From Nocardia sp. NBC_00565 (GTDB lineage Bacteria > Actinomycetota > Actinomycetes > Mycobacteriales > Mycobacteriaceae), in assembly GCF_036345915.1 (NCBI RefSeq), contig NZ_CP107785.1:8122001-8186000 (forward strand): a stretch of 64,000 nucleotides of DNA, read 5' to 3'. Of the stretch, positions 41,043 through 64,000 are shown piece by piece; the first letter of the stretch is position 1, and every line of letters starts with the position of its first letter. The notes beneath the pieces were generated by a model. That model did not search any database, was not told the DNA's origin, and saw nothing but the letters and a program-made list of their open reading frames with translations. The position numbers and the translations under genes were made by a program.

Positions 41043-42374
41043 TCAGCGCGGCGCGGGCGGCGGGAAGGGGAAGATCTCCGGCGGGATGGTCGGCAGCACG
41101 ATCGTCGGAAGGCCGGGCACCACAATGGTATTCGGCCCCGGATGCGTCGGTGCCGGTTCCGAAGTCGTCGCGCGACGCGGGGGCGGTGCGGCGACCGACT
41201 CGCTGCCATCGGTGGTGGTTGCGGGTGCGACGGCGATCTGGGGATCGAGGGTGGTGGTGCGCGGCGGGCTGGTCGGGGAGATCGAGGTGGCGCGGTCGCC
41301 GCTCTGCGAATCGCGTTCCAGGACTTGCGGACCGTAGCCGAGGCCGAGTCCGATCGCGGCGACCACGGCCAGTGCGCTGACGGTCAGCACCGCGCCGTTG
41401 ATCTCGCGCTTGCGGCGGCGCTTGGGTGGCGCGGATAGCCAAGCGGGCGAGAGTTCGTCGTCATCGAGCAGCGAATCCGCGGCGGGTGCGTGGTGCTGCG
41501 AGTTGGTGCCCACGGGTCGAACCGGACGCGCCAGCAGGGCCGCGCCGCGGGTCACCACCGTCTCCGGATTGTCGGGCACGATGACCGGCACACCCATCCA
41601 GCGTTCGAGCACCTTGGCGATCAACGGAATTCGGGCGCAGCCGCCGATCACGAGCACACCGTGCACCGGTCGATCGGCGCGCACGATCACATCGCGCGCC
41701 ATCCGGGCCGATGATTCGATCGCCAGCATGATGAGGGATTCGAAGTTCTCCTGCGCGAGCAGAACCAGGCCCTGTTCGCTCGGCAGGGCCACGGCGGTGT
41801 TTGTGGACAGCTGTTCCTTCGCCTCGCGGCACAGCGCGTCCAGGGCGGCCAGCCCCGCCGAATCGGGCGGATGCGCGATCCGGCCCGAGGCGATCTGCTG
41901 TTCGCGAATCAGCGAATCGAGGTAGTCACCGCTGATATCGCTGGTGCGTTCGCTGTGGCGGATCTCACGGGTCTCGGTGTCGACGACGCTGACGGTCAAT
42001 CCGGAGCTGCCGAGGTCGTAGACCACGAGTGCGGAGATACCGCGAATATCCCCGGTGGACTGCGCGAATTCGAGCGCCGCGATGATTTCGGGCACGAGTT
42101 CGTAATTGGTGAGCTGCTGGCGCGCCATGGCCGCCCGCAGCGCTTTGGCGTGCTGCTCACTGCGGTAGGCGATCGCGGTGGCGGCGATGCCGGGCATGGA
42201 AACGAGCGTCACGCCGATCGCCTCGGCGGCCAGCTCCTCCACCTGATGTTCGACGACGGGAATGGTCTGCAGATCGAACGAATGCGGCGCGACCCGGCCG
42301 TGAGGGTTCGCGGCGTGTGGCCGCGCCATACGGACGGCGCCGGCCCCCACCGAAACTCCCAGAACCGAACTCAT
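41043..42374 (-). CDS. Hsp70-like ATPase domain with TM and Pro/Thr-rich tail (copy 1)
   Basis: A 443-residue actin-fold protein. The nucleotide-binding part starts LGVSVGAGAVRMA and includes VVYDLGSSGLTVSVVDTETR (phosphate-2), GDYLDSLIREQQIA, AKEQLSTNTAVALP, and GVLVIGGCARIPLIAKVLER (adenosine loop). There is no substrate-binding domain; instead a basic segment (PPKRRRKRE), one helix (AVLTVSALAVVAAIGLGLGYG), then a Thr/Pro-rich outer tail. The same layout occurs at 60453-62267 and 56453-57574. It could sense envelope state and signal inward. ATG 42374 or GTG 42395 may be the start. Confidence 0.85.
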   Translation of the reverse strand: MSSVLGVSVGAGAVRMARPHAANPHGRVAPHSFDLQTIPVVEHQVEELAAEAIGVTLVSMPGIAATAIAYRSEQHAKALRAAMARQQLTNYELVPEIIAALEFAQSTGDIRGISALVVYDLGSSGLTVSVVDTETREIRHSERTSDISGDYLDSLIREQQIASGRIAHPPDSAGLAALDALCREAKEQLSTNTAVALPSEQGLVLLAQENFESLIMLAIESSARMARDVIVRADRPVHGVLVIGGCARIPLIAKVLERWMGVPVIVPDNPETVVTRGAALLARPVRPVGTNSQHHAPAADSLLDDDELSPAWLSAPPKRRRKREINGAVLTVSALAVVAAIGLGLGYGPQVLERDSQSGDRATSISPTSPPRTTTLDPQIAVAPATTTDGSESVAAPPPRRATTSEPAPTHPGPNTIVVPGLPTIVLPTIPPEIFPFPPPAPR

Positions 42375-42526
42375 CAGCTGCCCATCCCGTTTCACACATC
42401 ACGACATGCGAGCCTGCGCCGCCCGCCGGTGGAATGGCCCGCCTTCGCGACCATACCGCCGACGTCCGACAGTGCCGAAGGCTGGACCTGATCGATCCGG
42501 CGTTGCCCCCGCCTCGCCAGGCAACT

Positions 42527-53495: not shown

Positions 53496-54809
53496 CTAGT
53501 TGTTGACCTTCAGGCCCGGATTGTCCGAAAGGACCACGCTGACCGGCTGCGCGAACAGCTGGGGCGCGTCGCCGGTGAGTGCGCCGATCAGATTCGGGAT
53601 CTCGCAGATCGGGAAGTCGGCCACCGACGACGCGCTGGAGATGCCGAGAGCCATCCGGCCGGAGACGATCGCGCCGCCGCTGTCACCCGGCAGGGCGCAG
53701 ATGTTGGCGGAGAAGGCCTGGGTCAGCTCCCGATCGCCGACCTGCACGGTCTGGTCGATGGCGTTGACGATGCCGCAGCTGAAGCCGGTGCGCGCACCGG
53801 ACTTGCAGACCGGAGCACCGACCACCGGCACCGCGACGCCCTCGATCGCGACGGGCTGACCGGGCTGGCGCACGAGGTTGTTCGTGAAGCGGTCCCTGGC
53901 CTGATCGTTGATCCGGATGATCGAGTAGTCCTGCGCGCCGAGCACCGACTTCTGGAAGGTGCCGAGCTGCGCGCCGGGGCGATCGCCGGCCAATTCGAAG
54001 ACGCCGGACGCGTTCGCACTGCCCGCTGACGGGATGTCGGGATTGCAGTGGCCCGCGGTGATATTCACGACGTTGCCCGCGCGGTCGGTGCCGTTGAAGC
54101 CCAACGAGCAGCGCAGCGACATCCGCCCGGCGACCGAGGCGAAAGCGTCGCCACCGGCCAGCGGGCCGGTCTGCATCGCGCTGGCGACCGGAGTGGCCTG
54201 CAGCTGCTCACCGGCGATCGGCGGCGCCATCACGATGACCCGCGACGGATCGATGAAGTTCGGCATCGGCAGACCCGCCTGCTCGACGCGCACCGCGATG
54301 CTGTTGTTGACGGGGTCGACCACGACACCGCGCACCAGTGCGGAGACCGCCTCGGGCTGACCCTCCAGCCAGCGTTCGAACGCGCTCTTCTCACCACGCA
54401 GCGCCGCCTCGCTCTTGGCGACATTGCGGACCTCGAACCCGGCCGAGGTGGCGGCACCGCGGGCCTCGTCGGCGCCGGGGCCCTGCGCGACCGCCACCAC
54501 CGCCCTGCCGCCGTCATCGAGCCAGGAACCGGCGAAGGCCTGCGGGAACTGGCGCTGCGCCGTGGTGGCGAAGGCGGCGACCTGCTGCGCCAGATCGGCG
54601 CGGCGCAGGTACTCGTCGGGGGAGATCTTCAGATCGCGCGCGACCGCGGCGATCAGGTCCGCGGGCAGGCCGGGCTGGTCCGGTTGTGCGTTCACTACTG
54701 CCGCCGTCGGCCCGAACAGCAGAATCGCCGCCGAGGCGGCGATTACTGTTTTTCGGACCCGGGTCTGTCGCGCAGCTGATCGGAACTGACCTATACGTGG
54801 CAGGAGCAT
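53496..54809 (-). CDS. Secreted S1-family serine protease with alpha-lytic prodomain (first)
   Basis: Secreted trypsin-like (S1E) protease of 437 residues. The signal peptide (TVIAASAAILLFGPTAAVVNA) is followed by an alpha-lytic-type prodomain (about 40-200: RDLKISPDEYLRRADLAQQ, FAGSWLDDGG). The mature domain carries catalytic His in ITAGHC, Asp in QDYSIIRI and Ser in LPGDSGGAIV, and has paired Cys. The start may be 54815 or 54809; the latter has an AAGG site. A paralogue lies 112 bases upstream. It likely matures by self-cleavage and degrades external protein. Confidence 0.9.
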   Translation of the reverse strand: MLLPRIGQFRSAARQTRVRKTVIAASAAILLFGPTAAVVNAQPDQPGLPADLIAAVARDLKISPDEYLRRADLAQQVAAFATTAQRQFPQAFAGSWLDDGGRAVVAVAQGPGADEARGAATSAGFEVRNVAKSEAALRGEKSAFERWLEGQPEAVSALVRGVVVDPVNNSIAVRVEQAGLPMPNFIDPSRVIVMAPPIAGEQLQATPVASAMQTGPLAGGDAFASVAGRMSLRCSLGFNGTDRAGNVVNITAGHCNPDIPSAGSANASGVFELAGDRPGAQLGTFQKSVLGAQDYSIIRINDQARDRFTNNLVRQPGQPVAIEGVAVPVVGAPVCKSGARTGFSCGIVNAIDQTVQVGDRELTQAFSANICALPGDSGGAIVSGRMALGISSASSVADFPICEIPNLIGALTGDAPQLFAQPVSVVLSDNPGLKVNN

Positions 54810-54920
54810 GCCCATACCTTAAGGTGTCCGGCCGGTTATGCCTACTTATGTCGAGGTGTTGTTCAGCCCACTGCGAAACCGAAGGGCGAGAAGTCGGAAA
54901 TACGGTGTCCGACAGCCCTC

Positions 54921-56285
54921 TCACCCGGCGTTCGGCCGGGTCCGCACCTCGATGCCGTTGCCGACGCCGCCGCCCGAGGAGGCATCGATATCGGCCAGGA
55001 TCGACCGGATCGGAATGCCGAGCGTGGCGGTGCCGCCGTACTGCGCCAGCGCCATATTGGCCTCGTTGCAGTCCGGTGCGTCGGCCGCGTTGGAACCGCT
55101 GGTGATACCGAGGGCGAGGGTGCCCGTGACGATCGCGCCGCCACTGTCGCCGCCGAGGGTGCAGGCCGAGCTGGCGAAGCCGCGCACGGTCTTGCTCACG
55201 CCCTCGGAGGTGAACAGCTGGGTCTCGACCCGATCCGCCACCACGAAACCACAGGTGAAGGTGGAGGACTGGCCCGATTTGCAGACCGGAGCGCCGGTGA
55301 CCGGTTCGGCGGTACCGGTGACGGTCAGCGTGGTCCCGTTGGCACCGCGCACCGACGGCTGGTCCATGCCGGCGTGCACCGAACGCTCGTTGAGCTTGAT
55401 GACGGAGTAGTCGAGCGCGGTCGCGCCGCCGAGCCGGGCGTGCACGAAGTTGCCCAGCTCGATGCTGTTCGGAATGTCCTTGATGTTGGGCAGGTAGACG
55501 GCGGCCTGCTGATTGTCCTTCTCGAGGTTCGGATCGCAGTGGCCTGCGCTGATGTTCAGCGCGTTGCCCGCGGCGTCCACACTGTTGAAGCCGAACGAGC
55601 AGACATCGACGCCACGCAGCGAGGTGTCCTTCAGCGAGGTCGGCGCGGTGATGTAGGTGTCGCCGCCCATCGGACGACGCTCGACCGGGCCGCCGCTGTT
55701 GGGCGAGAGGATGACCTTGACGTTGGCGATCAGGGTCGGCAGGTTCAGCGCGTGGCCGACCGGGGTGTTGGCGACGGTCAGCACCAGTTGGCTGTTGAGG
55801 AAGTCGACGGCGACGGAGTTGATCGCCTGGGCGATCCCGTTCGGCAGCGTGTTGATCCACTGATTCAGCTGCATCAGTGAGTTCTCCAGGCTGTTCGCCG
55901 AAATCGGGGACAGCTTGGTCTGGTATCCATCGGCCGCGGCGATCTTGGCGGCATCGGCCGAGGTGACCGCGACGACCGGCTTGCCGTCGGTGCCGAGCCA
56001 AGCGCCCGCGTAGGTATCGGGACGCTCATTGCGGAAGTCGCGCGCATAGTCGCTGAGCTGCTGGGCCTCGGCCGAACGCGCCAGGTACTCCGCGGGCGTC
56101 ATCTTCAGATCCCGTGAAATGGCCTGCACCAGTTCGGGCGGCAGATCCTCGGCGCCCAGCTGGGCGGGCACGGTCGGCGCGGCTGAAGCGGAGCCGGTGA
56201 CGAGTAAGGGTGCCATAAAGACGGTCGCGGCCAATCCGATCGAGGCTGCCTTGACCGCGGCGCTACGCGCCACCAACTTGCGCAT
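54921..56285 (-). CDS. Secreted S1-family serine protease with alpha-lytic prodomain (second)
   Basis: Paralogue of the downstream gene (454 residues). Signal peptide SIGLAATVFMAPLLVTGSASA; prodomain with RDLKMTPAEYLARSAEAQQ and YAGAWLGTDGKPVVAV; catalytic His in ISAGHC, Asp in LDYSVIKL and Ser in LGGDSGGAIV. The two have similar order and likely arose by tandem duplication; they are diverged enough to have different specificity. An AAGGGA site precedes the ATG. Confidence 0.9.
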   Translation of the reverse strand: MRKLVARSAAVKAASIGLAATVFMAPLLVTGSASAAPTVPAQLGAEDLPPELVQAISRDLKMTPAEYLARSAEAQQLSDYARDFRNERPDTYAGAWLGTDGKPVVAVTSADAAKIAAADGYQTKLSPISANSLENSLMQLNQWINTLPNGIAQAINSVAVDFLNSQLVLTVANTPVGHALNLPTLIANVKVILSPNSGGPVERRPMGGDTYITAPTSLKDTSLRGVDVCSFGFNSVDAAGNALNISAGHCDPNLEKDNQQAAVYLPNIKDIPNSIELGNFVHARLGGATALDYSVIKLNERSVHAGMDQPSVRGANGTTLTVTGTAEPVTGAPVCKSGQSSTFTCGFVVADRVETQLFTSEGVSKTVRGFASSACTLGGDSGGAIVTGTLALGITSGSNAADAPDCNEANMALAQYGGTATLGIPIRSILADIDASSGGGVGNGIEVRTRPNAG

Positions 56286-56452: not shown

Positions 56453-57574
56453 TCAGCCAGGAGGTGGGAACTGGAACGTGTACGGCTGCTGCCACGGCTG
56501 TTGTGTCCAGCCGGGGACGGTCCACATGGGTATTCCGGGGCGGGTCGTGGTGGTTCGGCTCGGGCGGGTCGTGGTCGGCGGTGTCGTGGTGGTCGATTCC
56601 GTGGTCGGCGGTGTGGTGGTCGGCGGCGCCTCGGTGGTCGTCTCCGGTTCGCTACTGGTGATGACGATGGGCGGTTCGGTCGTCGTGCTCGACTCGGTCG
56701 GGAGATCGACCGGCGGCTGCGGCGGGGTCGGGCTCACCGACACCTGGTCGGACTTGGCATCGCGCACCGGCGGCACCGCGGTCGCGCCGGTGTCACGGAA
56801 CAGCACGGCCACCCCGAATCCGCCGAGCACCAATCCGATGACGACGGCGACCCCGATCAGCAGCGGGGTGGTGCGACCTGGCTTGGCCGGGGCCGCGGGC
56901 GGCTTGGGTTCGGCCACCTCGACAGCGGTCGCCGCGATGAGCGGAGCGGCGACCGGAAGCGCCGCCGAGTAGGCCTGCGGCTGGACATCGGGCGCGGGTA
57001 CCGCCGGAATGATGTCGGTGACCACGGTCGAGTTCTCGGCATCGGTCGGATCCGGCGGCGTCGCACCGGCGGGGGTCGCCAGCACGGCGGCCAGCGCCGC
57101 CCGGGCGGCGTCGTAGGCGTAGGACAGCTCCGGTGCGACGGCGTCGCTGCCGGGCAGATCGCCCTCACTGACCAGCAGTACCGAACGTAGGCCCAGGTAG
57201 TCGAGGGCGTCACGCAATGAGAGCACGTACTCCGACGGCCACCCGGCCGGATAGGCCGCGTAGAACTCGGCGGCGCCGTTCAGATGTTCGGCGGTCAGAT
57301 TGATCAGGCAGAACAGTGCCGTCGCGACCAGGTCCTCGGCTCGATAGGCCTCGCCGTCGTCGACGGTGAGGCCGGCCGGATCGCCGACCGCGGCGGCGAA
57401 ACCGGTGATCGAATGCGTGTGACCGGCCGGTGCCGGACCGCCGAGCACGGTGTCGCCATCGTCGGACATGTGCAGGATCGACTCGCGAACTATGAACTGC
57501 GGTTCGCCGCTGTCGGTCACGATGGCCGCTGTGCAGTTGTCCTCGGCGATGCGCAGGCCCACCCCAGTGGCCAT
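56453..57574 (-). CDS. Truncated Hsp70-like domain with TM and Thr/Pro-rich tail (copy 2)
   Basis: A 373-residue protein. The N-terminal part (TGVGLRIAEDNCTAAIV, ALFCLINLTAEHLNGAAEFY, AYPAGWPSEYVLSLRDALDY) matches only the first subdomain of an Hsp70-type actin fold; the phosphate-2 and adenosine motifs are missing. A transmembrane helix (LLIGVAVVIGLVLGGFGVAVL) and a tail rich in Thr, Pro and Ser follow. It probably cannot bind ATP alone and may partner with the larger Hsp70-like protein at 60453. It lies 44 bases downstream of the regulator gene on the same strand. Confidence 0.8.
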   Translation of the reverse strand: MATGVGLRIAEDNCTAAIVTDSGEPQFIVRESILHMSDDGDTVLGGPAPAGHTHSITGFAAAVGDPAGLTVDDGEAYRAEDLVATALFCLINLTAEHLNGAAEFYAAYPAGWPSEYVLSLRDALDYLGLRSVLLVSEGDLPGSDAVAPELSYAYDAARAALAAVLATPAGATPPDPTDAENSTVVTDIIPAVPAPDVQPQAYSAALPVAAPLIAATAVEVAEPKPPAAPAKPGRTTPLLIGVAVVIGLVLGGFGVAVLFRDTGATAVPPVRDAKSDQVSVSPTPPQPPVDLPTESSTTTEPPIVITSSEPETTTEAPPTTTPPTTESTTTTPPTTTRPSRTTTTRPGIPMWTVPGWTQQPWQQPYTFQFPPPG

Positions 57575-57618
57575 CCTCAAATACCTCGCTTCGGCGTCAC
57601 GGATCGGCCCGCACCTTT

Positions 57619-60456
57619 TCACACCAGCAGCGAGCCGTGTCCCATGGCGCGGAGCATCGACAATAACTCCGAACGCGAACGGGCACCGATCCGGCGTCGG
57701 ATACGGGCGACATGATGCTCCACCGTTTTGGCGGAAATATACAGGCGAGCGCCGATCTCCCGATAGGTCAGACCGAGCAGGACGAGTTCGGCGACTTCGC
57801 GCTCACGTTCGCTGAGGATGGCCGCGTCCGCCACCGGCTCGGGTGCGGATTTCGGCCCGTCGCCAGCGGACTCGGCGGGTGCGGGCTGGCGGGCCGCGGG
57901 CTCCTGCGGCCGGGCGTCCGCGCGGACGATTCTGGCCAGTTTGAGCAGTGCGGTCGCGGTCGCGGAATCGGCGGCCGCGAGTGCGGCCTCACTGGCGAGC
58001 CGGGCGGCATCCCAGGTCAGACCGATTTCGCTGAGTCCGGCGACGGCCGCCTGCACCGGTGCCGCGGCGACCTGCCCGCGCAGCACGAGCACCCAGGTGC
58101 GGCCCGCGTCGGCGAGGATCGCGGCATGCCGGTCGCCCGCTTCGGCCGCGGCCTTCAGCAGCCGGGCATGCGGCAACAGCTCCGCCGGACTTTCGTGCGC
58201 GATCGCGGCCTGCACGCCGTACCAGTGGAACGCATTGGCCCAGGCGGGCGGCTGGTCCAGCCGTCGGAGCAGAGCCAGGGAGGCATCGACCAGCGGGGCG
58301 ATCCGGCGCTCATCGCGCAGCCGGATGCCGGCGAGCCACAGCTCGCCGATCGGCAGCAGGGTGAGCAGGTCGGCGTCCACATCATCGAAGAACGGATACG
58401 CGGCCTGCCAGGCGCGGGTCAGCGCGGCGTGATCGCCGCCGCGGCGGGCCAGCCCGACCGCGACCCCGTGCGCGAGCAGGCGGTCGCGGATATCGAGCGA
58501 CTCCGGTTGCAGCGCGGCGACGGTGGCCGCGGCGGCCTGTTCGTCACCGCCGAGCATCGCGGCCCATGCGGCGAGCACCTGTAATTGGTGGCAGCGCAGG
58601 CCGCTGGTGGTGGCCCGGCGCAACGCCTCACCGGCCCGGCGCGGTTCACCGGTGCTCAGGCACAGCAGGGTCGCGATGGAGGCGGCGGTGCACGGCAGGA
58701 ACCGATCGGTGCCCGCATCGGCCTGCGCGGCCTGGATGAGCGCGGATACCGCTGCGGCGGTGCCGGTTTCGTGTTCGACGATGGTGCGGGCGAGCGCGGT
58801 GGCGATCAAGCGGGCGTGTGCGTTGGCCTCCGTCGGCGGCCACTGCGTCGATGATTCCGACATCGCGGCGGCGGCGCCGACATCACCCGCGAGGTACAGC
58901 ACGGTCGCGCCGACCGCCCAATCCGCACCGACCCGATGCGCGCCGAGCCAGGAGTACAGCTGGGCGGCGCGGCCGACCAGGCCGCGCCGGGTCAGCACCG
59001 CCGCGCAGATGCGCACGGCCGCGGCGAGTTCGGCGCCGGTGACACCGGGGCGGGCCAGCACCGGTTCGGCCAGGCGGATGGCGGTATCGCCGTCGCCGGT
59101 GCACGCGGCCGCCTCCGCCCAGCGCAGCGCGATGAGGTCGGGATCGGCGCCGGTGGCCGCCGCGGCGGCGTAGTAGCGGACGGCCTCGCGGCCCGCCTTT
59201 TCGGCTGCGGCGCACAGGAATTCGGCAAGTCGCTGATCGCGGACACCGGACTCGGCGAGCAGCAGCGCGGTGTGATCGCGCAGCAGGCCGGCGTCCAGTC
59301 GCGCATTGAGCAGTCGACGCTGGACCGCGACGAAACGACGGTCGCCGAGCAGGGTGCGCAGCGGTCCGACGGCCGGTTCGAGCAGCAGATCGGCATCGGT
59401 GACCAGGGCGCTGGCCCTGGCTCGATCGATAAGGACCTGGGCCGCAGCGGATTCCACGCCGAGGACCTCGGTGAGTTCGCTGGAATCCAGTCCGGTGCCG
59501 GTCGTGGCGACCACCAGGGTCTCCAGCAGGTCCGGCTCGAGGTTGTCCAAAAGGGCACGGGCCCACGCGGTCACGGAATCGTCGACGGCATGGATACCGG
59601 CGTCGAGCCGGGCCGAGCAGGCGGCGGTCAATGCGGCGACCACACCGCCGCGGCTGCCCGCGGTCTGCCGGTGGATGTGCTGGGCGACCGGGCGCGGTAC
59701 CGCCATGCCGAGTTCGCGGGCGAATGGCGCGATATCGGAGACGCCGAGGGCGCGCAGGTCGACCACGCGGCCGCGGCGGGCGACGGTATCGGCGAGTGTG
59801 CGCAGGCGTGCGTCGTGCGGGCGCGGCTGGGTCGCGACGATGACCGTGCAGCGGCCGGATTCGATGGTCGCGCAGAGGGATTCGAGATCGGATTCGCTCA
59901 GGGTGTGGGCGTTGTCGATGATCAGGGCCGGGCGGGGATCGGTGCGCGGGTGTGCGTCATCGGGGGAGTTGGGTGTCGGACGGTAGCCCGGGTGCGACCC
60001 ATTGTCGGGGCGAGAGCCTGTCTTGTACCCATTATCGCTCGCGCGGGTTCTGCCGTAGGCGGGCGGTTTGTCGTTGACGTGTGGCACATCGACAGCGCCG
60101 GGTGCGTGGCCGGGTCGGGTTTCGTGGCTGCGGTGTGTTCCGTCGGTGTTGTGTGCTCCGATGCCGCGGTCCGTTGTGGCGGTGCGGTGTGGGCCAGCCG
60201 TGCTGCCGCCCAGTGTCGCGTGTGCCCCGTCGGATGAATCAACCTGTGCCGCAGAACGTTCGGGCATTGCCGGGTCGTCTCGGAAGGGGACACCATGGGC
60301 GCGTAGGCGGGCGCGGATCACCGAGAGGAGGGTGGATTTGCCCGAGCCGGAGCGGCCGCGGATGAGATAGACGATCGGTTGGTGATCGGCGGAGTCCAAC
60401 TCACGGAAGATCTCTCGTGCGTCGGGCAGCGTCTCGAAGGCGATATCACTCATCAT
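57619..60456 (-). CDS. iniR: LuxR-family regulator with P-loop ATPase domain (IniR/Rv0339c type)
   Basis: A 945-residue regulator. The N-terminal ATPase has Walker A GRSGSGKST (34-42) and Walker B ALIIDNAH (177-184); between them is an insertion of about 115 residues rich in His, Asp, Gly and Thr. A long helical repeat region follows (about 380-850), and the C-terminal LuxR helix-turn-helix reads LSEREREVAELVLLGLTYRE and IGARLYISAKTVEHHVARI. Rv0339c, next to Rv0338c and iniB in M. tuberculosis, controls iniBAC; the same setting here supports the name. Its start overlaps the stop of the Hsp70-like gene upstream by four bases. Confidence 0.85.
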   Translation of the reverse strand: MMSDIAFETLPDAREIFRELDSADHQPIVYLIRGRSGSGKSTLLSVIRARLRAHGVPFRDDPAMPERSAAQVDSSDGAHATLGGSTAGPHRTATTDRGIGAHNTDGTHRSHETRPGHAPGAVDVPHVNDKPPAYGRTRASDNGYKTGSRPDNGSHPGYRPTPNSPDDAHPRTDPRPALIIDNAHTLSESDLESLCATIESGRCTVIVATQPRPHDARLRTLADTVARRGRVVDLRALGVSDIAPFARELGMAVPRPVAQHIHRQTAGSRGGVVAALTAACSARLDAGIHAVDDSVTAWARALLDNLEPDLLETLVVATTGTGLDSSELTEVLGVESAAAQVLIDRARASALVTDADLLLEPAVGPLRTLLGDRRFVAVQRRLLNARLDAGLLRDHTALLLAESGVRDQRLAEFLCAAAEKAGREAVRYYAAAAATGADPDLIALRWAEAAACTGDGDTAIRLAEPVLARPGVTGAELAAAVRICAAVLTRRGLVGRAAQLYSWLGAHRVGADWAVGATVLYLAGDVGAAAAMSESSTQWPPTEANAHARLIATALARTIVEHETGTAAAVSALIQAAQADAGTDRFLPCTAASIATLLCLSTGEPRRAGEALRRATTSGLRCHQLQVLAAWAAMLGGDEQAAAATVAALQPESLDIRDRLLAHGVAVGLARRGGDHAALTRAWQAAYPFFDDVDADLLTLLPIGELWLAGIRLRDERRIAPLVDASLALLRRLDQPPAWANAFHWYGVQAAIAHESPAELLPHARLLKAAAEAGDRHAAILADAGRTWVLVLRGQVAAAPVQAAVAGLSEIGLTWDAARLASEAALAAADSATATALLKLARIVRADARPQEPAARQPAPAESAGDGPKSAPEPVADAAILSEREREVAELVLLGLTYREIGARLYISAKTVEHHVARIRRRIGARSRSELLSMLRAMGHGSLLV

Positions 60457-62267
60457 CTGCCTCCGGGGATCTTGGGCAGGACGGATACGACGCCGCCGAC
60501 GGTGTCTTCTACCGCGTTGCCGAGGGTGTCCACGCCCGGAAGAGATGGCGCGGTCGGAACTTGCGGCTGCGTCGTGGGCTGTGGCTGTGGCGTGGGGGTG
60601 TCCGCGGACGGCTGCTGGGCAGGCGTCGGTTGGCTCTGCGTCGGTTGGCTCTGGGTGGGTTGGCCGTTGGCAGGCTGGCCGGCGGCGGTCTGTCCTGGTG
60701 TGGGCTGGCTGTTCACCACGGCGACGGTGGTCGCGGCGGGGGAACCCGGCTGTCCCGCACCGGATTTCGGTTGACTCGGGCTGCCGACGGGCGAATCCAT
60801 CGCGGCCGAGGTCACGGGGCCCGAGGGATTGCCGTCGGTGGTCGCGGCGACGGCCGAGGCGCCCGGTGCGGTCGTTTGATCGGTGCCGGCCGGTTGGTTC
60901 GTGGTCGACTGCGCGCCGGTGCCGAGCGCGACCGTGCCGGTAGCGAGCACGCCGAGCACCAGCGCCGCGCCCGCGACGATGGCGGCGCGCTGGCGGCCGG
61001 TGAGTTTGCGGCGGGACCGGCCGCTCGTACTCGGCAAGGTCGGGTTGTGCACAACGGTGTCGCGCCCGCCGTTCGTCATCGGGCTGCCGGTCGGGCGGGC
61101 GACCCGCTCGGCGCCCCGCGGCACAGTGGGCAGTTCCTCGGTCTTCGCGATGCCCGCCGCGATGGCCGCCACCGGGGTGCGATCCACGGTGGCCGCCAGC
61201 AGATCCGCGGCCAGTGCCGCGGCGCCGAGCGCGCTGGTCAGCTGCGGTTCGGGGGCCGCGACCACGGGCAGTCCGAATTCGGTGGAGATCAACTCGGCCA
61301 CCAGCGGGATCGCGCCGCCGCCACCGGCGAGCAACACCCGGCCGATATCGCCGATATCGAGTCCGGCGCGGTGTACCGCGTCGCGGATCAGCTCGATCGA
61401 GGTCAGCAATGGCCCGCGCAGCAGATCCTCGAGTTCGCCGCGCACCAGTCGGATGTTTTCGGCGTGGTGATCGGCCGGGTTCAAACGGACCGGGACGACG
61501 GTCGCGGTATTTGTGGAAAGCTCTTCTTTCGCATATCGGCAGCGTTCACGCAATGCCGACAATTCCCGTTCGATCACCGGATCGAACGGATCGAATTCAT
61601 TTCCCCGCATGGCGTTAGCCAGGACATAGCGCATGGTCAGCAGATCGAATTCCGCGCCGGCGACATCGGTAGAACGCAGTGGTGCGCCGAGTACGGCCGC
61701 CTGGTCACCGGTGCGCACCACCGAGACGGTCAGGCCGGATGCGCCGAGGTCGTAGACCACCACCGCGCCGTCGCCGAGCGGGCCGTGTGCGGTCTCGAGC
61801 CATCGCATCGTCGCGGTCGGCTCCGGGACAAGCGTCACCTCACGCAGGCGAGCTCGATCCAGTGCGGCCCGCTGGACGTCGACGGTGTGCCGCGACCACC
61901 ATGCCGGATGGCAGGCGACCGTGGCTCGCGCCGCACCGGGGCCGATCTCGTCGATCAGGCAGGTGACGGCCGTGGCCACGAGATCCGCTGCGGAGTGGGC
62001 GGTTCCGTCTTCGGCGAGGATATCGACCGGATCGCCGACCCGCGCCAGAAAGCCCTCGAGTACGACGTCGCTGGAGTGCCGGCCGGTGCGGCGGGCGCTG
62101 CTGCCGAATGTGGGCGCCGCGTCCGCCGCGAAGCGCAGCACGCTCGGATGGGTGATGACAGTGCCACCGGAGTGGCCGCTGTCGTAATCGCTGCCGTCCC
62201 CCGGGGTCGCCACGGCGACCGAATTCGACGCTCCGACAGTTATGCCGAGCGCCACACGCTCTGTCAT
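60453..62267 (-). CDS. Hsp70-like ATPase with TM and Pro/Gln-rich tail (copy 3)
   Basis: A 604-residue actin-fold protein. The nucleotide-binding domain has LGITVGASNSVAVATPG, a connect region, VVVYDLGASGLTVSVVRTGD (phosphate-2), YAKEELSTNTATVVPV and RVLLAGGGGAIPLVAELIS (adenosine loop). After about residue 395 a basic stretch (GRSRRKLTGRQRAA) precedes one helix (AIVAGAALVLGVLATGTVAL) and a tail of repeated QPTQSQPTQSQPTPAQ units. No substrate-binding domain is present. It is the first gene of the cluster, divergent from iniB, and overlaps the regulator start (ATGA), so they are translated together. Confidence 0.85.
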   Translation of the reverse strand: MTERVALGITVGASNSVAVATPGDGSDYDSGHSGGTVITHPSVLRFAADAAPTFGSSARRTGRHSSDVVLEGFLARVGDPVDILAEDGTAHSAADLVATAVTCLIDEIGPGAARATVACHPAWWSRHTVDVQRAALDRARLREVTLVPEPTATMRWLETAHGPLGDGAVVVYDLGASGLTVSVVRTGDQAAVLGAPLRSTDVAGAEFDLLTMRYVLANAMRGNEFDPFDPVIERELSALRERCRYAKEELSTNTATVVPVRLNPADHHAENIRLVRGELEDLLRGPLLTSIELIRDAVHRAGLDIGDIGRVLLAGGGGAIPLVAELISTEFGLPVVAAPEPQLTSALGAAALAADLLAATVDRTPVAAIAAGIAKTEELPTVPRGAERVARPTGSPMTNGGRDTVVHNPTLPSTSGRSRRKLTGRQRAAIVAGAALVLGVLATGTVALGTGAQSTTNQPAGTDQTTAPGASAVAATTDGNPSGPVTSAAMDSPVGSPSQPKSGAGQPGSPAATTVAVVNSQPTPGQTAAGQPANGQPTQSQPTQSQPTPAQQPSADTPTPQPQPTTQPQVPTAPSLPGVDTLGNAVEDTVGGVVSVLPKIPGGR

Positions 62268-62556
62268 TCGAGAACCCCGTTCGAAAACTGTGTGGTCCGG
62301 TAGTCGCTGTTGTCTGGTCGAGAAGGCGGAGTAGACCTGCCAGCCGCAACACTTCTGTCGGTTGCTGGGCGTCCGCCGTTACCGAGTCGGGGAAGGTGCG
62401 GGGAAATTCCCCTAATGGTTCGCGTACCCCTAACCGAGTCGTGCGGTGCGCAGTAGGGGCGCGCCCCGTTTCGAAGTAACGCCGGACGTACCTAGCGTGA
62501 AATGCATTCCAACGACTGCGGACCGCACGGGTCCGCTCATCCAGGAGATGATTTCG
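62268..62556. promoter_or_regulatory. Divergent control region between the Hsp70-like operon and iniB
   Basis: About 290 bases. It contains the near-palindrome GGGGAAATTCCCC (62400-62412), and the block TACCGAGTCG at 62379 resembled by TAACCGAGTCG further on (about 62430). An iniR-type regulator would be expected to act here; the motifs are candidates only. Confidence 0.5.
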
Positions 62557-64000
62557 ATGACACCCAACGCGATTCTGGAGTTCATCCTCAACCTGCTCCG
62601 TGACCCTGAGGCCGCGGTGGGTTACTGCGCGAACCCCGGACAGGCGCTGGCAGCTGCCGGTTTGCCCGCGGTCACGCCCGAGGACATCGCCGCCGTCGCC
62701 CCCATGGTCGCCGAATCGGCCCTGATCGCGGGCGGTTCGCAGCTGTCGGCGATCGTGGCGGCCGGTGGCGCCGCCGACGCGGGTGCCGCGGCCGCCGCGA
62801 GCGCCAATACCGCCGCCGCGGTCGGCGTCGGCGCGGCGGCCGATGCCGGGGTGAACCTCGGCACCGATATCAACCTCGGCGCCGACCTCGGCCTCGATAT
62901 CGGCACCGGTCTCGATCTGGCCACCGGCCTCAACGGTGCGATCGGTGCGGGCCTGCAGGCGGGCGCCGACCTCGGTGCGGGAGTGGCGACCGGCCTCGGC
63001 GGCATCGTCAACGCGGGCGCGGGCCTGACCGCCGGACTCGGCGCCGCCGTCGATGCCGGTGTACAAGCCGTCACCGGCCTGACCGCGGGCCTCGGCGCTG
63101 CCCTCGGTGGGTCGGCGCAGGCCGGAGCCGACCTCGGCGCCGGTCTGAGCACGGGCCTGCAAGGCGCGGTGGATGCCGGAACGCAGCTCGTCACCGGCCT
63201 GGGCGCGGCAGTCGGCACCGGGCTGGACGCCGCTATCGGCGGGGGGTTGAACGGCACTATCGGTACGGGTGCACAAGCGATTTCAGGTTTGGAGACGAGC
63301 CTCGGGGGTGCCCTCGATGCGGGTGGACAGGTCGGAGCCGACCTCGGCGCCGGCCTGAACGGCGTCATCGGCGCGGGTACTGACCTGGGCGCGAGCCTGT
63401 CCACCGGCCTCAGCGGAGTCGCCGATGCCGGAGCACAAGCGGCGGCCGGGATCGGCGGTGCGGTGAATGCGGGCGGACAGGTGGGCGCCGGGCTGGGAGC
63501 CGGACTCGGCGGCACGGTGGGTGCCGGGACGCAAGCGATCTCGGGCCTGGAGACAGGGTTGTCCAGCGGACTCGGTGGTGTTGTCGATGCCGGTGCCGAT
63601 CTCGGCGGTGGCCTGTCGACCGGCCTGAATGGTGCCGTCGATGCCGGTGCGCAGGTCGGCTCCGGCCTCGGCGGCGATATCGACGCGGGTGGCGGTCTCT
63701 CGACCGGCCTGAATGGTGCGGTCGATGCCGGTGCGCAGGTTGGTTCGGGCCTCGAGGCAGGCCTCGGTGGTGCAATCGACACCGGTCTCTCGACCGCAAT
63801 CGGTACCACGGCCGACCTGAACACGGAGTTGTCCACAGGTTTGGCGGGTGCGGTGAATGCCGGAACCGAGGCGGGTGCGGATCTGTCCACAGGTGTCGGC
63901 GGCACGATCGGCGGCGGCGCACAGACCGGTGCCGATCTCGGTGCGGGCCTGACGACCGGTCTCGGCGGTGCTGTTGATGCCGGTGCGCAAGCTGCCGGTG
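62557..64000 (+). CDS. iniB: IniB-like protein, N-terminal part (runs off window end)
   Basis: At least 481 residues. The N-terminal IniB domain reads NAILEFILNLLRDPEAAVGY, then NPGQALAAAGLPAVTPEDIA. From about residue 80 it becomes a long Gly/Ala-rich low-complexity region of units such as GLNGAVDAGAQVGSGL with a Leu-Gly rhythm; one 84-base (28-codon) direct repeat begins at 63616 and 63700. IniB is the cell-wall-stress protein of the iniBAC operon in mycobacteria. An AGGAG site lies 9 bases before ATG 62557; an in-frame ATG at 62548 is too close to it. The frame remains open to the edge. Confidence 0.88.
   Translation, partial: MTPNAILEFILNLLRDPEAAVGYCANPGQALAAAGLPAVTPEDIAAVAPMVAESALIAGGSQLSAIVAAGGAADAGAAAAASANTAAAVGVGAAADAGVNLGTDINLGADLGLDIGTGLDLATGLNGAIGAGLQAGADLGAGVATGLGGIVNAGAGLTAGLGAAVDAGVQAVTGLTAGLGAALGGSAQAGADLGAGLSTGLQGAVDAGTQLVTGLGAAVGTGLDAAIGGGLNGTIGTGAQAISGLETSLGGALDAGGQVGADLGAGLNGVIGAGTDLGASLSTGLSGVADAGAQAAAGIGGAVNAGGQVGAGLGAGLGGTVGAGTQAISGLETGLSSGLGGVVDAGADLGGGLSTGLNGAVDAGAQVGSGLGGDIDAGGGLSTGLNGAVDAGAQVGSGLEAGLGGAIDTGLSTAIGTTADLNTELSTGLAGAVNAGTEAGADLSTGVGGTIGGGAQTGADLGAGLTTGLGGAVDAGAQAAG

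Follow-up and report, generated by a model that had tools for sequence, protein, structure and literature searches.

A putative membrane-tethered Hsp70-like protein coded with the IniR-type regulator of iniBAC in Nocardia: a candidate sensor link

The stretch analysed here, the window, comprises 64,000 nucleotides (C1:8122001-8186000) of the 9.7-Mb one-contig genome of Nocardia sp. NBC_00565, and it harbors an operon-like minus-strand run of three genes, hspL, iniR and hspS, that is divergent from a complete iniBAC locus (Table 1). The iniB gene is cut by the window edge, and iniBAC is considered complete because the two genes that come next beyond this edge code for dynamin-family GTPases (Dynamin_N matches of 57.7 and 43.9 bits, cut-off 27); dnaK is found about 7 kb further on. 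A preliminary description of this DNA had listed three minus-strand genes, namely two for Hsp70-like proteins flanking one for an IniR-type protein, along with a divergent IniB-like gene, an overlap of four bases between the first Hsp70-like gene and the start of the regulator, and a hydrophobic stretch followed by a Pro/Thr-rich tail in the Hsp70-like proteins. The three genes were borne out, as was the overlap, in which the hspL stop and the iniR start share four bases as ATGA; the divergent gene carries the IniB N-terminal domain, and each Hsp70-like protein has one strong hydrophobic stretch ahead of such a tail.

Table 1. Features of the hspL-iniR-hspS region and the adjoining iniBAC locus (positions are those of the window unless marked L013)
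Feature	Position	Strand	Description
hspL	60453..62267	-	604-aa Hsp70-like protein; DnaK-type nucleotide-binding domain at about residues 1-360, without substrate-binding domain
HspL predicted transmembrane helix (residues 430-448)	60924..60980	-	Kyte-Doolittle 2.26
iniR-type gene	57619..60456	-	945-aa P-loop / LuxR regulator; NF038181 505 bits, GerE 52.5 bits
hspS	56453..57574	-	373 aa; DnaK-type domain reduced to lobe I, followed by helix and Pro/Thr-rich tail
HspS predicted transmembrane helix	56801..56857	-	Kyte-Doolittle 2.63
Candidate IniR box	62408..62433	-	TTAGGGG direct repeat, 18-base spacing; conserved in iniB/hspL intergenic regions
CCCCGTT element between box and iniB	62464..62470	+	Kept in 18/18 Nocardia intergenic regions
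iniB, 5' part	62557..64000	+	NF038175 66.3 bits, cut-off 40; gene end beyond window at L013:4708
iniA	L013:4746-6560, beyond window edge	after iniB	Dynamin_N match over cut-off
iniC	L013:6584-8164, beyond window edge	after iniA	Dynamin_N match over cut-off
Diverged hspL paralogue	41043..42395	-	450 aa; Pfam HSP70 39.8 bits; outside operon

The pairing of hspL with iniR was followed through 81 named loci, i.e., the best 80 of 452 confirmed matches in a scan with the IniR alignment plus the window, and near relatives are over-represented among them owing to this choice of the best matches. The nearest named relatives of the locus within this set are Nocardia, and a quick tree places the window HspL beside that of N. 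anaemiae (L052). Sixty of the 81 loci could be judged (window included), and in 49 of these hspL lies directly upstream of iniR on the same strand. The 21 loci left out comprise 14 in which iniR adjoins a contig edge and hspL is not seen, and seven with hspL, of which six have an IniR lacking the N-terminal domain and one (L083) has a cut hspL. The near copies L087, L090 and L091 are all counted in the 60; the ini locus of L091 (NZ_JNYV01000013.1), titled Kitasatospora arboriphila, is near-identical to those of Williamsia L087 and L090, and this record is likely mislabelled or contaminated. Upstream hspL is missing in 11 of the 60 loci, viz., those of N. albiluteola (L075), N. wallacei (L084) and nine Mycobacterium. 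Where the two genes adjoin, they nearly touch, with an in-frame iniR start codon at most 30 bases from the hspL stop in 55 of 56 cases and a four-base overlap in nine.

The arrangement extends beyond the family of the window. Twenty regions were examined from 19 of the 25 genomes with IniR outside that family; in 18 of these regions hspL lies next to iniR with iniB, iniA and iniC beside it (one of them, L163, in a different orientation), the exceptions being L159 and L164 (second iniR copy). IniR is found at an E-value of 1e-60 in 50 of the 69 genomes of the genus of G052, which we take for Mycobacterium. Ten of these 50 could not be judged due to contig ends or an iniR in pieces, and each of the other 40 carries hspL at its ini locus; the gene lies immediately upstream of iniR in 33 genomes and beyond iniC in seven (four of the seven from coordinates alone). 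In six Mycobacterium loci, the copies beyond iniC, which are convergent with iniC, form a clade with an SH-aLRT support of 100 that is sister to 13 upstream copies (98), in a quick tree assessed by SH-aLRT only and built without hspS-type rows and most other Hsp70-like frames of the window's genome. Thus, hspL seems to have moved within the Mycobacterium locus rather than vanished. The gene order is therefore not specific to one strain, in line with the neighborhood conservation that the preliminary description had proposed to check, and the idea of HspL as a Nocardia-only novelty was rejected as the gene recurs across the order. It could be argued that hspL belongs to a sprawling actinobacterial Hsp70-like family, some members of which happen to sit near iniR through common descent with few rearrangements and have no functional connection to it; several family members do occur per genome in unrelated contexts, and one persists at a locus with neither iniR nor iniBAC. 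We regard this as improbable, given the order-wide recurrence, the move within the locus instead of loss, and the presence of hspL at 460 bits or more in 35 of the 50 Mycobacterium genomes with IniR against one of the 19 without, a cut-off picked after seeing the scores, which reach down to about 367 bits.

The regulator itself begins with a P-loop NTPase domain, continues into a long middle region and ends in a LuxR-type DNA-binding domain, and iniB adjoins its operon. The match to the NCBIfam IniR model supports the earlier assignment as IniR-type, though it is under the equivalog cut-off of 750 bits; the GerE match is over its cut-off, while AAA-type Pfam matches are below theirs. Walker A is present in the IniR alignment, and a hydropathy scan found no strongly hydrophobic helix in the window IniR. 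A long low-complexity stretch (residues about 60-172) separates Walker A from Walker B, and the 135 residues between the two motifs are the longest such separation among the loci measured. A second, shorter iniR-like frame lies directly 3' of iniR in L069, L071 and L193 (N. cyriacigeorgica and a like genome). In Rhodococcus-type IniR, the NTPase domain has been lost in six loci (L096, L097, L099, L100, L110 and L115) and the Walker A motif is broken in three (L098, L108 and L122). The persistence of hspL beside all nine suggests that the switch can lie elsewhere than in IniR.

HspL matches Pfam HSP70 with 73.9 bits, the match ending at profile position 377 of 599, and its domain is modelled by AF2 with a pLDDT of 83.7. 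The closest solved fold is that of DnaK (Foldseek match to 4ani with an E-value of 5e-24; TM-score of 0.83 to 4rtf by target length). A substrate-binding domain was found neither in the Pfam match nor in the AF2 model, its place being taken by a linker, the predicted helix and a low-complexity, Pro/Thr/Gln-rich tail of 156 residues; the 25 residues before the helix carry a net charge of +6 and those after it -1. By plain hydropathy, all 56 HspL relatives coded upstream of iniR in the named loci and the window have a hydrophobic stretch (that of L079 at a doubtful place), with tails of 84-243 residues. The Gly-rich tail of Rhodococcus HspL was considered as a homologue of the IniB repeats and rejected, since its local scores against IniB of the same locus, computed for 13 chosen loci, gave z of -1.5 to 2.1 relative to shuffled tails.

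The window HspL carries L, G and T at the sites equivalent to K70, T199 and the phosphate-1 Asp of DnaK, the numbering of the latter two sites being the one we assume for DnaK. Lysine is found at the K70-equivalent site in one of 92 aligned relatives, and the T199-equivalent is kept in three of 52 upstream rows. In the window's family, two of the 52 upstream rows have the phosphate-1 Asp and all 52 have the phosphate-2 Asp; the corresponding numbers among 18 rows from other families are 16 and three, with the alignment of the catalytic sites being less sure in the 18 other-family rows. The glycines of the adenosine site are retained in 51 of the 52 upstream rows, the remaining row having a gap. 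The K70 of DnaK touches the gamma-phosphate and has a stabilising effect on the transition state (PMC8215388, in extract). A fair inference from these residues is that HspL would bind nucleotide without ordinary turnover. The earlier label of chaperone-type ATPases thus fails for both proteins of the window, with no substrate-binding domain, the near-complete loss of the K70-equivalent lysine, and HspS reduced to half a domain. The related proposal that HspL is a true chaperone, folding IniR or envelope proteins, could draw on an HSP70 match far over cut-off and on DnaK as the source of the closest folds, but the missing substrate-binding domain, the scarcity of the K70- and T199-equivalents and the absence of lobe II from HspS render it highly improbable.

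The open frame of hspS reaches back to a GTG at 57622, which overlaps iniR and would give a protein of 389 residues. The conserved start, however, is the ATG at 57574, 48 bases after the GTG, whose Met is invariant in all 26 aligned rows; 44 bases therefore lie between iniR and hspS, and a four-base hspS/iniR overlap was rejected as protein conservation begins only at this ATG. A Pfam search with a limit of E = 1 gives no match for HspS. Its confidently folded part of about 167 residues (AF2; residues 1-167 mostly above 90 pLDDT) has DnaK as the closest solved fold (Foldseek E-value of 2.6e-6), and eight HspS-type relatives from Rhodococcus and Antrihabitans match the HspL profile at about positions 6-201 and then jump to 319 or later. 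The order of strands and helices in the model, together with this jump, indicates that HspS keeps lobe I alone of the DnaK-type domain and is thus not a complete Hsp70-like ATPase. The description of two Hsp70-like proteins consequently stands for HspL, but in HspS covers only a single lobe in a 373-residue protein. The gene follows iniR in each of the 29 Nocardia loci (the window among them) whose sequence extends that far, a count that takes in two loci with a second iniR-like frame in between.

The control region shared by iniB and hspL holds the sequence TTAGGGG in 45 of 50 loci, against a mean of 1.6 and a maximum of six in 200 rounds of dinucleotide shuffling; three of the 53 intergenic regions are omitted from this count (L105, with a misread iniB start, L090 and L091). 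Four of the five loci without it (L079, L082, L094, L097 and L100) have the variant ATAGGGGA. Matches to TTAGGGGA with at most one mismatch number 96 on the hspL-sense strand and 19 on the other, and pairs of them are spaced 18 bases (22 pairs) or 15 bases (12 pairs) apart. All nine Mycobacterium loci without upstream hspL have two pairs each, one beside iniR and one about 0.8 kb further towards iniB. The boxes, pairs included, are absent from L075 and L084; these two loci also yielded no dynamin gene but retain hspS. Across other families, the box is seen in 17 of 20 regions, a count that is only supportive because it admits looser variants and lacks a shuffle control. This genome has a single perfect double site, which fits a dedicated regulator like M. 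tuberculosis IniR, reported to bind directly in front of iniBAC (extract of PMC5760070). A wide IniR regulon through the TTAGGGG box was rejected, with two further sites of two mismatches each against ten for the reversed control. We infer the TTAGGGG repeat to be a putative IniR site; the motif was not found in the ini-promoter literature among the papers listed. The CCCCGTT element may be a -35 sequence, though a promoter role is a guess.

The best-supported reading of these sequence patterns is that a membrane-tethered protein coded with the regulator would serve as its sensor link. The published system needs a link across the membrane, because sensing is placed in the periplasm by Boot et al. 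2017 (PMC5760070, in extract) while IniR has no strongly hydrophobic helix; the same extract reports that trehalose induces iniBAC in M. marinum despite loss of the only known trehalose importer. We tentatively propose, at a confidence somewhat short of even, that HspL contacts IniR on the cytosolic side of the membrane and, upon wall damage, releases or activates it. The predicted helix of HspL would span the membrane, placing the nucleotide-binding domain on the inner side and the tail on the outer side; either the tail itself or some protein touched by it may report wall damage or periplasmic trehalose. HspL would then act as a nucleotide-state leash on IniR, in the manner of the E. coli maltose transporter and MalT. 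With the repeat in the shared iniB/hspL control region taken as the IniR site, IniR would drive iniBAC as well as its own operon. HspS, having lobe I only, could accompany them without hydrolysing nucleotide, either competing with the contact between HspL and IniR or stabilising it.

Several observations weigh against this proposal. IniR is patchy, being detected in 36 of 150 genomes sampled from the order, and one of the two other genomes of the genus Nocardia in this sample has no IniR match at an E-value of 1e-20. M. tuberculosis IniR presumably works without hspL at its ini locus. Conversely, hspL of the upstream kind is present beside a ferredoxin-type gene in G189, which has no IniR match, iniBAC or boxes, and hspL-type genes occupy the old locus beside a ferredoxin-type gene in G043, G102 and G109, again with no IniR match. 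A positive charge bias before the helix, supporting an inside N-terminus, is seen in only 42 of the 56 upstream HspL proteins, and tail composition varies between genera. The membrane tether of the preliminary description agrees with both proteins of the window, but among the 18 HspL relatives of other families (scanned from residue 330) a strong helix is found in eight, probably nine with that of L157, leaving nine or ten without one. Wall sensing through the tail is therefore unlikely to be the ancestral job of HspL and was rejected as such. HspL relatives without a strong helix (L145-L147, L152-L155 and L162) have in common a C-terminal motif like RPPVxITPLxxP, which is perhaps a docking peptide.

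The placement of some hspL copies also speaks against a regulatory partnership. The window's own genome has a second ini-like locus (C1:3225281-3230207; L178:3282-8208), consisting of an IniA-like dynamin gene (51.7 bits), an hspL-like gene and a convergent IniC-like dynamin gene (46.7 bits), and no iniR is found there. Likewise, eight Mycobacterium loci have an hspL copy in the same orientation as iniBAC and within or immediately behind it, between iniC and iniA in L112 and directly after iniC in L113, L117, L123, L125, L126, L128 and L130. These arrangements, along with the copies beyond iniC in seven of the 50 IniR-bearing Mycobacterium genomes, would be expected if HspL were an effector, i.e., a membrane-anchored scaffold or a nucleotide-dependent clamp of the IniB/IniA/IniC dynamin machine, neighboring iniR through co-regulation. 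In the arrangement that is commonest and most widely spread, however, hspL adjoins iniR almost without a gap, and not the dynamin genes, and this junction holds even where HspL has no strong helix. We consider such an effector role a serious possibility, though one we doubt, and as an explanation it is nearly as good as a partnership with IniR. Both could be true if a part of the machine also holds the regulator, by analogy with the maltose system.

Taking partnership with IniR as the preferred reading, one may picture a signalling Hsp70 across Mycobacteriales, in which a chaperone-dead domain would act as the receptor that holds and releases IniR, would have been pinned to the membrane with a wall-reaching tail in Nocardia, Rhodococcus and Mycobacterium, and would have been handed the ATP switch by some Rhodococcus IniR. 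This wider scenario is rather unlikely as a whole.

Among the neighboring genes, the one at 41043, described earlier as a third gene of the same layout, does share that layout and is Hsp70-like, but it is a diverged paralogue outside the operon, separated from hspS by 14 kb, neighbored by a UDP-glucose dehydrogenase gene and forming a long branch within the hspL family in the tree. Two serine-protease-like genes follow hspS on the minus strand, one at 53496-54815 with a Pfam trypsin match of 21.2 bits (cut-off 20.6) and one at 54921-56285 for which the only match is weak.

The preliminary description had known of no described link between such proteins and iniBAC. This holds insofar as no role is proposed for a dnaK-like gene in the extracts of Boot et al. 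2017 (PMC5760070), but one sentence there does concern a dnaK-like gene in M. smegmatis. The terms Hsp70 and DnaK are absent from the extract of the HpoR paper (PMC13413693), as are Hsp70, chaperone and IniR from that of the IniA structure paper (PMC6715688). No other link of an Hsp70-like gene to iniBAC or IniR was found among the matches listed from the open-licence literature. Our guess is that the partner was overlooked since it left the iniR side in M. szulgai, M. gastri and the Mycobacterium species grouped with them, and is presumably lacking from the ini locus of the tuberculosis bacterium. The question matters as the action of cell-wall drugs on mycobacteria is routinely read out through the induction of iniBAC. 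In the published account a trehalose signal in the periplasm and a regulator in the cytosol stay unconnected, and HspL would supply the connection; with a conserved partner coded next to the regulator, the route by which damage outside the membrane reaches IniR can be probed by deleting a single gene. Use of the Hsp70 fold for signalling rather than folding would also widen the known uses of this fold.

HspL has the nucleotide-binding domain fold in common with DnaK and HscA but, unlike these, has no substrate-binding domain, has lost the catalytic lysine and bears a hydrophobic helix and tail instead. MalK, the subunit of the maltose transporter that holds MalT, is an ABC ATPase, whereas HspL is an Hsp70 fold with changed catalytic residues; the two would work alike, and HspL is not a member of that system. 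The likeness to MalT and the maltose transporter of E. coli (extract of PMC5760070) lies in a large NTPase/LuxR-type activator that is held at the membrane side and released by a signal. Closest to the window locus is the IniR/iniBAC system of Mycobacterium, with the same type of regulator, the same iniB-iniA-iniC block and an FeS-oxidoreductase gene on the far side of iniR, from which it differs in that a small iniB-like gene often lies in between in Mycobacterium. The published Mycobacterium model (PMC5760070, in extract) comprises IniR and trehalose and gives the dnaK-like gene no role; here, in contrast, hspL appears as the usual partner of the regulator, and its absence from the side of iniR is the exception.

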